This document shows, one piece after another, positions 47,249-54,068 of a stretch of DNA of 64,000 nucleotides (the first letter of the stretch is position 1; every line of letters begins with the position of its first letter). The stretch is from Haloglomus salinum. GTDB lineage: Archaea; Halobacteriota; Halobacteria; Halobacteriales; Haloarculaceae. The notes beneath the pieces are model-generated. The model saw nothing but the letters and a program-made list of their open reading frames with translations, searched no databases and was not told where the DNA came from. The DNA lies in NCBI RefSeq assembly GCF_024298825.1, contig NZ_CP101153.1, forward strand, positions 3,658,001 to 3,722,000, in the 5' to 3' direction. A program made the translations under genes and the position numbers.

Positions 47249-47956
47249 ATGCAGTTGAGCCCCCAGGAGTACGACCTGATGGAGCTCCGGCAGGTCGCGC
47301 GGCCGGCGGAGGACGGGACGGAGCCGCCTCGGGAGGACCGGCCGGGGGGAGACAGGGGAGCGCACCGGGCCGACGGCGGGGCCGCCGTCGCTGGGGGGCC
47401 GGACCCGTGGGGGGAGACGGGCCCTCGGCAGCCGGACGCGACGCCACCGGGGGCGTCGAACCAGTCGTCGGAGCGCGGCGACCGGTCGGCGGCAAGCGAA
47501 GAGCAGTACACGGGCGGGGTGCCGGACCACCTCAGGGCCTCGGATGGACGGACCCGCGCGACCGCGGCCCGCCGACCCGAAACGGCCGGGCGCGAGCCGC
47601 CGGCCCGTGGTCAGGCACCGCGCAACGAGCGGCCGGGACTCGCGTCCCTGGCGCTGGCCGGCACGGGCTCGCAGGAGCGGCCGTACCTGCGCTCGCTTCC
47701 GGAGGGGGCGGCGACCGAGTTGCTGATCTTCCGGTGGCTGGAGGGCCTCGTCGAACGGGCCGGGAGTCAGGGAGCCCACGACGCGCTGGAGTACTACCGG
47801 GCCATCGACTGGCTGACCGAGGATGCGGCCGCGAACCTGCAGGACTACCTCGGCGGCCTGCCCGACCCGGCCGGCGACCAGCCCGGACTGACGACCGAGG
47901 ACCACCGAACGAGCCTCGAGTTCGTCATGCACATCGCCGGGCATCACGGAGACTGA
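47249..47956 (+). CDS. ArlD/E-domain (FlaD/E) protein with long disordered linker
   Basis: A 235-residue protein. The start LSPQEYDLMELRQVA resembles the short N-terminal helix of haloarchaeal FlaD/E proteins. About 115 residues of Gly/Pro/Arg/Glu-rich, low-complexity linker follow. The C-terminal ~75 residues are a FlaD/E (PF04659-type) domain: PYLRSLPEGAATELLIFRWL, then GAHDALEYYRAIDWLTEDAA. Such domains occur in ArlD/ArlE of the archaellum, where they connect motor and chemotaxis inputs, but no arl gene is present in this window. A second, shorter homologue lies at 53685. It is convergent with the vWA lipoprotein. Confidence 0.8.
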   Translation: MQLSPQEYDLMELRQVARPAEDGTEPPREDRPGGDRGAHRADGGAAVAGGPDPWGETGPRQPDATPPGASNQSSERGDRSAASEEQYTGGVPDHLRASDGRTRATAARRPETAGREPPARGQAPRNERPGLASLALAGTGSQERPYLRSLPEGAATELLIFRWLEGLVERAGSQGAHDALEYYRAIDWLTEDAAANLQDYLGGLPDPAGDQPGLTTEDHRTSLEFVMHIAGHHGD

Positions 47957-49651: not shown

Positions 49652-49812
49652 GACATCAGAACGTGTGGGTCGCTATCACATGTAGGCGACGTAGCATCAA
49701 AGGCGGATTTGAGCGATTGGACGGGGCCGGTATCGCCCCGGTACGGGACTGCATCGCAGGTTTCGGGCCTGTCGTCACACCTATCACCCGGGTTCCCTTA
49801 TCCCCGACCGCC

Positions 49813-50121
49813 ATGAGTGCGAACGACGACAACGACCCTGTCGAGGAGCTGACCCAGATGTTCGAGGACGGCCCCTTCTCGGACCTGCTCGAGGGCACCG
49901 ACATCGACCCGGAGGACTTCGTACAGGACCTCATCGACGCGGCCGACGAGACCAACACCGCGCTCGAGGACCTGTTCATCGAGTTCAACGAGTCCAGCCC
50001 CGTCCCCGGGAGCGACCTCCTGGCGGAGCTGGGCGAGGAGACCCAGCAGACCCGCAAGGAGCTGCTGGACATGTTCCGCGATGCGGCCGAGGAGATGGGC
50101 GACCGGGGCGGCCGGAACTGA
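49813..50121 (+). CDS. small acidic helical protein, unknown
   Basis: A 102-residue, strongly acidic protein predicted to be nearly all helix: DPVEELTQMFEDGPFSDLLE, then DFVQDLIDAADETNTALEDL and ELGEETQQTRKELLDMFRDA. It has no cysteine, no membrane segment and no recognised domain. It precedes another small acidic helical protein (50236) on the same strand after a 114-bp gap. The two share composition and pattern but little direct identity. Confidence 0.65.
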   Translation: MSANDDNDPVEELTQMFEDGPFSDLLEGTDIDPEDFVQDLIDAADETNTALEDLFIEFNESSPVPGSDLLAELGEETQQTRKELLDMFRDAAEEMGDRGGRN

Positions 50122-51801: not shown

Positions 51802-51917
51802 CCCTCTTTCTTGCGCCTCCGGACGAGGCTTCTTGCGCTCCCGCATGGCTGCAAGGGTGTCCGCCCTCCGTCGGGCCGTGGGCTTCTTTGCGCTCGGCGG
51901 GACATCTCCGACGAGGG

Positions 51918-52493
51918 ATGCGATTCGACTTCACGGAGCCCGAGCGGGTGTTCGAGGCGCTCGACCGGGGGCGGGACCAGAGCCGAGACCGGAACCCGGC
52001 GTCCACTGGCGACCATCGATACCGGGCGGCCGTCGAGACGGCGCTGCCGTCGTTTCCCGACGGGCTGGACCGTCTCCCCTGTCGTGTCATCGACCGGTCG
52101 GACGACGGGGAACCGGTCCACCGGTTCGGCGTGACGCCGGTGATGACCACGCCGCTCGTACACACCTTCGACCTCCCCCTCTCCCGCGTCCGGACGTACG
52201 ACCACCGGGTGCGGGTCCTCGGTGTCGGACACGGGCGAACGCCGACGGCCGCGCTCCGGTCGCTCCGGCGTCGAGGGCTCGTAGTCCAGCTGGAACTCCG
52301 GCGCGGCACCGGCGAGTTCGAGCCGCTCCTGTGGGCGACCGACACCCAGGTCTACATGGAGGGCGTCTCGGGGTACGACATCCACCGGGAACCGGATGTC
52401 GTCGACAAGGGTGTGCAGGCGAGGCTGCTGAGTCGGGGGGAGGAGTTCGTCCACGTGGACGAGGCGTCGGACCGGAACGACGCCGAGGGATAG
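51918..52493 (+). CDS. hypothetical protein, basic N-terminal half
   Basis: A 191-residue protein that I do not recognise. It begins MRFDFTEPERVFEALDRGRD and contains VRVLGVGHGRTPTAALRSLR and VVQLELRRGTGEFEPLLWA in the middle, ending in an acidic tail. Secondary structure looks mixed alpha/beta, with no membrane segment. Its relatively high arginine content is unusual for the neighbourhood. The ATG at 51918 follows a GAGGG ribosome-binding-like sequence. It is convergent with the actin-like gene. Confidence 0.6.
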   Translation: MRFDFTEPERVFEALDRGRDQSRDRNPASTGDHRYRAAVETALPSFPDGLDRLPCRVIDRSDDGEPVHRFGVTPVMTTPLVHTFDLPLSRVRTYDHRVRVLGVGHGRTPTAALRSLRRRGLVVQLELRRGTGEFEPLLWATDTQVYMEGVSGYDIHREPDVVDKGVQARLLSRGEEFVHVDEASDRNDAEG

Positions 52494-52530: not shown

Positions 52531-53622
52531 TCAGTACGCGCCCCGGTCGACGAGGCGGTCGGAGATACGCTGTGCGCCGCGGGCCGCCGCCGTCACCGGG
52601 TCGTCCGGTGCGATGACCTCGACCTCCCGCTGGAGTTCCGCGCGCAGGCGCGCCTCGAACTCGTCGACGAGACCCGGGATGCAGGTCATTCCCCCGGTGA
52701 GAACGACGGGGTTGTCGAGCGCGAGGTTGTACGTCTTCATCGAGTCGTTGGCGAACTCCGGGAGGAAGGTGTTCGCGAGTTCGTCGACCGCCGCGTCGAC
52801 GTACTCGTCCATCGCGTCCATGACACTGCGCTCGATGGTGAACTCGTGACTCCCGCCACCGGGCTGCTGGATGACATCCGTGAACGGCTCGAACGAATCG
52901 AAGTCAGCGTGTTGCTCCTTGTACTCCCGGGCGGTGGTGCGGTCGATGTTGACCCGGCCCTGCGTCTCCTCCTCGACGAGGTTGGCGATACGGCGGTCGA
53001 CCTCGTTGCCGGTGACGGCGCCGGTAGCGAAGTGCGAGAACTGCTCGCCGCGTCGGTACGCCGAGGCCTCCATGTTCGTCGACCCGAGGTTGATACCGAC
53101 GAATATCTCCTCGACGGCCTCGAGCCCGTCGCCCAGCGCCGGAATCGCCCCGCAGAGCGACTCGGGATACGAACGGATGCCGTGGTCACCGATGCCGCTC
53201 TCGTCGATGACGCGCTCCAGGTTCGCCAGTCCCTGCTCGTTGTCGATACTGGGGATGGCGTAGACCACGACGCTGTCCGAATCCACGTCGTTGGCCGAGA
53301 CGACCTCGCGGAAGAACCGCTCGGCCAGGTCGGCGCGCTCGTCGTCCTCCGGCAGTCCCGACCGGAGCATGAACTCCACCTCGTCGGGGTACTCCAGTGC
53401 GGCCTCCTCGCCGTAGAGCAGGCGCTCCTCGCCGGTGATGGCGTCCTCGTAGGTGGCGATACAGGTGAGCGTCGTACTGACAGACAGGTTGCCGTCGGCG
53501 TCCGGGTGGACCACGACCGTCCGCGTGCTCCCGAGTTTGACGCCGACGGGCGCCGGGTCGTCGTCCGTGCTCTCGCCCTGCTCGTCCTGCTTCCCCCCGT
53601 CGTCTTCGGATTCACTCGCCAT
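52531..53622 (-). CDS. actin/MreB/Hsp70-superfamily protein (possible salactin relative)
   Basis: A 363-residue protein of the actin-ATPase superfamily. A disordered acidic N-terminus (1-25) precedes phosphate loop 1, VGVKLGSTRTVVV, at about 26-38. The connect region has VVVYAIPSIDNEQGL (118-132) and YPESLCGAI with Glu154. Phosphate loop 2 is FVGINLGSTNMEAS at about 174-187, and the adenosine loop VVLTGGMTCIPGLVDEF is at 306-322. The length fits MreB/crenactin-type actins, and the haloarchaeal actin called salactin is the likeliest relative. Lys29 and Asn178 stand where the catalytic/metal aspartates of D-L-G-T and D-x-G-G-T are expected. A TATA-like CTATTTACT lies 27 bp upstream. Confidence 0.8.
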   Translation of the reverse strand: MASESEDDGGKQDEQGESTDDDPAPVGVKLGSTRTVVVHPDADGNLSVSTTLTCIATYEDAITGEERLLYGEEAALEYPDEVEFMLRSGLPEDDERADLAERFFREVVSANDVDSDSVVVYAIPSIDNEQGLANLERVIDESGIGDHGIRSYPESLCGAIPALGDGLEAVEEIFVGINLGSTNMEASAYRRGEQFSHFATGAVTGNEVDRRIANLVEEETQGRVNIDRTTAREYKEQHADFDSFEPFTDVIQQPGGGSHEFTIERSVMDAMDEYVDAAVDELANTFLPEFANDSMKTYNLALDNPVVLTGGMTCIPGLVDEFEARLRAELQREVEVIAPDDPVTAAARGAQRISDRLVDRGAY

Positions 53623-53644
53623 ACGCGTCGCCTCTCGTGAGGAT

Positions 53645-53653
53645 AGTAAATAG
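53645..53653 (-). promoter_or_regulatory. TATA-like promoter of actin-like gene
   Basis: The reverse strand reads CTATTTACT, centred 27 bp before the ATG at 53622. It lies in the 62-bp gap after the ArlD/E-like gene, so the actin-like gene can be transcribed alone. Confidence 0.5.
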
Positions 53654-53684: not shown

Positions 53685-54068
53685 TTATCGCTCCCGGACC
53701 TCCCACTCAGCCAGCCGCGCGATGCGTGCGAGACTCCGCATGTGGTCGGCGCGGTCGAGGTCGTCGAACCGGCTGGGGCGGTTCCCGACACCGAGCAGGT
53801 ACGCTTCCAGGTCGTCGCGGACCTCCGGAGTGAGCCAGCCCATGAAGCGGTAGTACTCCAGCGCGGCGACCGCGCCGTCGAATCCACCCGACGCGACGAG
53901 GTCCGCTAGCCAGTCGAGGACGAACGACGTCGTCTCCTCGTCGTTCGGAAGGGCGGAGAGATACGGGAGTTGCACCCCGAGATTCCCACCGGTGCCCGGA
54001 CCGGACGCCGACTGCTCCCGGAGCGCCCGCAGTTCCTCCACGTCGTACTCCAGCGGGTTGACCCCCAT
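53685..54068 (-). CDS. short ArlD/E-domain (FlaD/E) protein
   Basis: A 127-residue protein. VNPLEYDVEELRALREQ at the start parallels LSPQEYDLMELRQVA of the 47249 protein. A very short linker is followed by the FlaD/E domain: PYLSALPNDEETTSFVLDWL, then GAVAALEYYRFMGWLTPEVR and LEAYLLGVG. In the archaellum this domain belongs to ArlD/ArlE, which link the motor to chemotaxis. Here it precedes the actin-like gene on the same strand by 62 bp. A TATA-like CATTATGAAC lies 27 bp before its ATG. Confidence 0.8.
   Translation of the reverse strand: MGVNPLEYDVEELRALREQSASGPGTGGNLGVQLPYLSALPNDEETTSFVLDWLADLVASGGFDGAVAALEYYRFMGWLTPEVRDDLEAYLLGVGNRPSRFDDLDRADHMRSLARIARLAEWEVRER

Follow-up and report, generated by a model that had tools for sequence, protein, structure and literature searches.

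The window analysed here is a stretch of 64,000 nucleotides from the genome of Haloglomus salinum. Its minus strand encodes an actin-superfamily protein of 363 amino acids (open reading frame 52531-53622, ATG at 53622), preceded by the gene for a small ArlD/E-domain protein. The features of this locus are as follows.

53685..54068, minus strand: gene for an ArlD/E-domain (Arch_fla_DE) protein of 127 amino acids (PF04659, 67 bits), directly upstream of salactin
53643..53650, minus strand: TATA-like TTTACTAT, some 24 nt upstream of the salactin ATG, recognised from sequence
52531..53622, minus strand: salactin gene, 363 amino acids (Pfam PF25229, 591 bits, residues 23-358; AlphaFold2 pLDDT 92.5; MamK and MreB the nearest structures)
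53557..53622, minus strand: acidic N-terminal tail, residues 1-22 (MASESEDDGGKQDEQGESTDDD), modelled with low confidence (pLDDT 51-54 over the first 20 residues)
53515..53547, minus strand: phosphate-1 loop VGVKLGSTRTV, residues 26-36, placed by alignment to MamK and MreB (Lys in 101/102 salactins)
53161..53163, minus strand: connect-1 Glu154, kept according to the family alignment (Asp in many non-haloarchaeal salactins)
53071..53103, minus strand: phosphate-2 loop FVGINLGSTNM, residues 174-184, placed by alignment to MamK and MreB (Asn in 102/102 salactins)
53068..53070, minus strand: Glu185, aligned with the Glu/Asp that MreB and MamK conserve just after their phosphate-2 loop
52669..52701, minus strand: adenosine loop LTGGMTCIPGL, residues 308-318 (G310, G311, M312 and G317 invariant)

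The protein is a full-length salactin, and an ordinary member of that known family. It matches the Pfam Salactin profile with 591.3 bits (curated cut-off 27.1) over profile positions 1-335 of 335, and its matches to the Volactin (PF25216; 24.9 bits, cut-off 35) and MreB (19.4 bits) profiles are under the cut-offs. A sequence-only reading of this DNA had proposed salactin as the relative to compare; the choice was right, as the protein is itself a salactin. The genome encodes one copy. A long, charged, disordered N-terminal tail has been described for the salactin of H. salinarum, and this trait is present here in residues 1-22. An in-frame GTG would extend the reading frame to 53706, but the start at 53622 is preferred because of the TATA-like TTTACTAT, which suggests that the gene has its own promoter and a leaderless haloarchaeal start. 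A frame or start error was dropped as an explanation for the loops, both of which sit well inside the frame.

In actin, MreB and Hsp70 alike, the handling of Mg-ATP is taken to require the two aspartates of the phosphate loops, and bacterial actins are commonly frozen by mutating the second of them. The sequence-only reading, which gave no strand, had claimed that both are replaced in this protein, by Lys29 (codon 53536-53538) and Asn178 (codon 53089-53091), and that Glu154 and the adenosine loop are kept. The loops and residues are as it described, and the comparison with solved structures bears out the replacement. Searching the PDB with the single salactin sequence gave at best Actin-related protein 6 (E 0.11), so we rely here on a profile built from 53 salactins, which matches MamK and MreB structures with E values of 6e-10 to 1e-5. 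In the phosphate-1 loop, the salactin profile (vpvGvklGstrt) aligns over LFLGVDLGTSHT of MamK (5ljv), with the core GvklGstrt over GVDLGTSHT, and in the phosphate-2 loop avnlGstnle aligns over IVDIGAGTTDI of the same structure. Since neither loop contains an internal gap, Lys29 and Asn178 occupy the positions of the catalytic and the second aspartate, and in the MamK/MreB profile alignment no other loop position corresponds to these aspartates. Thus, two traits of the superfamily, the Asp of phosphate-1 and that of phosphate-2, are absent, and two others, the acidic or Gln residue of connect-1 (E154) and the adenosine GG (G310-G311), are present.

Membership in the actin superfamily, also claimed from sequence, is supported both by the profile matches and by an AlphaFold2 model made from the same 53-salactin alignment (mean pLDDT 92.5). 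The model is closest to MamK (5ljv, Z 31.4), followed by MreB (Z about 30) and actin (Z about 28), and the predicted fold is that of an actin. The missing aspartates lower the case for a canonical actin ATPase, not that for relatedness, because fold and profile show common descent. Position 185 is Glu in 48, Asp in four and Gly in one of the 53 aligned salactins. R232, K235 and E236 are invariant in the salactin alignment, on the ribose/adenine side, and presumably resemble the R210-K213-E214 arrangement of actin; this side of the pocket looks conventional, judging from the residues that line it. In the salactins of non-haloarchaeal orders of the phylum (L082-L095), position 154 is mostly Asp rather than Glu.

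Lys29 is found in 101 of 102 distinct salactins and Asn178 in all 102, a set that covers haloarchaea as well as other orders of the phylum (86/87 and 87/87 in a smaller first set), so both residues are conserved well beyond the haloarchaea, for which the question had been raised. Identity to the query falls to about 33-35% overall (33-41% outside haloarchaea), and only 28 columns of the 53-salactin alignment are invariant. Given this divergence, the near-absolute conservation of Lys29 and Asn178 is far above chance and points to strong selection on both residues. The loops of H. salinarum salactin (GVKVGSTRT and AINMGSTNL) contain the same Lys and Asn, and replacement of both phosphate-loop aspartates is a family-wide salactin trait. 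In a phylogenetic tree a branch with 100/99 support separates the salactins from volactins and MamK-like archaeal actins, with long branches between groups. The MamK-like archaeal actins form separate groups and keep both aspartates. A decaying pseudo-actin site with unselected loops was ruled out, since both residues are almost invariant among salactins of low overall identity.

More than one salactin is encoded in some genomes. The sole salactin of the 102 that lacks Lys29 is a paralog with Asn29 (L111/L209:10255-11385), and the genome that encodes it also carries two Lys29 salactins inside an archaellum operon (L208). P342A alone stood out as co-varying with the Asn29 replacement, and was not informative.

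The upstream gene is one of only three ArlD/E-domain genes in the H. salinum genome. A second lies in the window about 5 kb from salactin (47249-47956, plus strand, 235 amino acids), with a gene for deoxyhypusine synthase just upstream of it. No Pfam domain was found in the flanking open reading frames 51888-52493 and 49663-50121. Among distinct haloarchaeal salactin loci with enough flanking sequence, an ArlD/E-domain gene adjoins salactin in 50 of 66 (directly upstream and on the same strand in 45, adjacent in another arrangement in five), whereas none of the 12 loci of other orders has such a neighbour. The reading frames of the pair are often only a few bases apart or overlap. Within 20-kb stretches, an ArlD/E-domain gene recurs across most of the genera sampled, and several of these genera also have genes for CheY, CheC and CheD within the stretch; Haloferax elongans shows the arrangement CheY-CheC-CheD-ArlD/E-salactin. 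Halovenus carboxidivorans encodes two salactins within its archaellum operon, after FlaH and between the flagellins and FlaC/D-E (L010:2920-8460), and this layout is repeated in a second genome (L208). A tree of the ArlD/E domains resolved no single clade of salactin-linked sequences apart from those of archaella. H. salinarum has only two ArlD/E-domain genes, neither adjoining salactin, and a published analysis that used H. salinarum as bait called the synteny poor.

The H. salinarum protein is the only salactin for which ATP-dependent polymerisation and dynamic instability are established. Its reported ATPase activity increases with KCl up to 2.9 M, and the protein pellets with ATP or AMP-PNP and not with ADP, GTP or ATP-gamma-S; critical concentrations are 0.96 uM with ATP and 0.37 uM with AMP-PNP, with no polymerisation in ADP up to 10 uM (PMC10746226). 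The filaments are dynamically unstable, growing and collapsing from the cell poles (PMC10746226), and bundles formed in vitro did not depolymerise. The published ATPase is unexpected, because replacement of the phosphate-2 Asp abolishes hydrolysis in AlpC (PMC4446434) and the corresponding D161A replacement strongly impairs filament dynamics in MamK (PMC5059902). This discrepancy is real. The word 'aspartate' is absent from the salactin paper (PMC10746226), and we found no mention of the Asp replacement in salactin in the literature searched.

We predict that the single-copy salactin of H. salinum is an ATP-gated actin filament with a MamK/MreB-like fold, in which Lys29 and Asn178 replace the two Mg-ATP aspartates, and give this reading a probability of about 0.7. 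Lys29 would neutralise the beta and gamma phosphates and do some of the work of the carboxylates that coordinate Mg, and Asn178 would preserve the second loop's hydrogen-bonding geometry. Glu154 and Glu185 may stay as catalytic or metal-facing acids, and ATP binding and hydrolysis would toggle the filament interface, as in other actins. In most haloarchaea the small ArlD/E-domain protein encoded alongside may be a co-worker of the filament, as the gene order suggests. It is plausible, given the altered loops, that the chemistry itself is changed, for example in metal use. Chemistry without the first Asp has a precedent in acetate kinase, which belongs distantly to the superfamily and has Asn at that position. 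A bolder version, unlikely in its full form, would combine two proposals: that phosphate handling has moved from Mg-coordinating carboxylates to Lys and Asn, with lysine-assisted and perhaps Mg2+-independent turnover, and that the filament belongs in most haloarchaea to a polar module whose ArlD/E-domain adaptor is a relative of the archaellum switch.

The same discrepancy could be settled in the other direction, with salactin acting as a switch that binds ATP and polymerises without meaningful hydrolysis, the reported ATPase coming from a contaminant and disassembly being driven by other factors. Both aspartates are lost in salactin, when loss of the second alone is reported to abolish hydrolysis in AlpC and to impair dynamics in MamK. 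Polymerisation is better with AMP-PNP than with ATP, and bundles were static in vitro. Because the portion of the salactin paper text that was searched (PMC10746226) contains neither a catalytic-mutant control nor a test of Mg dependence, a contaminant or a weak ATPase is possible. However, the activity increases with KCl up to 2.9 M, a salt level at which a contaminating E. coli enzyme should be inactive, and filament collapse in vivo is rapid. On this evidence we consider a non-hydrolysing switch improbable. Far less credible is a further proposal, that salactin does not hydrolyse ATP and enters filaments as a subunit alongside another actin of the same cell. It was prompted in the sequence-only reading by the replaced active site, and the presence of two or more salactins in some genomes would be in keeping with it. 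However, H. salinum has one salactin and no volactin, a Pfam Actin search of its genome returned a weak match to salactin itself and nothing else, and the four MreB-profile matches are Hsp70 proteins; thus, the idea lacks a partner here. In addition, H. salinarum salactin, with the same Lys and Asn, is reported to hydrolyse ATP and polymerises alone (PMC10746226), and both paralogs in the archaellum operons carry Lys29 and Asn178. Thus, of the two options offered from sequence, the results fit the first, a protein that forms filaments with altered nucleotide chemistry, and do not support the second, a non-hydrolysing partner of another actin. Besides DnaK, the genome encodes three Hsp70-family proteins (L073, L074 and L075, at G000:C1:2226381, 2178443 and 2176782), two of which are close neighbours.

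The cellular role of the ATP-gated filament is a separate question. In Haloferax, FlaD forms mobile foci at the poles (PMC6509185), and the foci from which salactin filaments grow are also polar, so the ArlD/E-domain protein is a reasonable polar adaptor and candidate salactin partner, the gene order being an association and not proof. We found no salactin partner reported in the literature. It is possible, although we lean against it, that salactin serves mainly, in most haloarchaea, in a polar archaellum/chemotaxis apparatus, via this adaptor, rather than in chromosome segregation. The adjacency in 50/66 haloarchaeal loci, the CheY-CheC-CheD genes of several genera, the paired salactins inside the archaellum operons of Halovenus and one other genome, and the shared polar position of FlaD foci and filament origins would all fit such a role. 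However, deletion of salactin in H. salinarum left motility unchanged and caused a defect in DNA distribution in low phosphate, and the adjacency is absent from all 12 non-haloarchaeal loci. The two roles could both hold.

The salactin family is known; as far as the literature searched shows, the family-wide loss of both aspartates and the conserved haloarchaeal ArlD/E neighbour are new. A family that lacks both residues, yet is published as ATP-consuming and dynamically unstable, does not fit the usual rule for actins. This makes a single purified salactin, with a handful of point mutations, a direct test bed for the role of the aspartates, and the conserved neighbour provides a candidate partner.

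Among known systems, the closest is the salactin of H. salinarum (AAG18772.1; PF25229), which is about 67% identical to the window protein and shares its Lys and Asn loops, charged N-terminal tail and actin fold. It differs in having no ArlD/E-domain gene within 4 kb, whereas the window gene has one directly upstream, and in having been characterised biochemically, whereas the window protein is known here from its sequence and a model. MamK (5ljv) and MreB (4czj, 1jcg) are the closest solved folds (Z about 30-31), and share the gap-free loops, connect-1 Glu and adenosine GG, but have Asp in both phosphate loops in place of Lys29 and Asn178. Volactin (PF25216; HVO_2015 of Haloferax volcanii) is, like salactin, a dynamic haloarchaeal actin without the phosphate-2 Asp, that position being Ser (GISFGAGMTN) in 30/30 loci aligned (L116-L145), but unlike salactin it keeps the phosphate-1 Asp (GLDVGTMN). 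Mad28 of magnetotactic bacteria provides another natural loss of the phosphate-2 Asp, again to Ser (PMC10653835), but belongs to a different family, and the text searched reports no Lys in its phosphate-1 loop.
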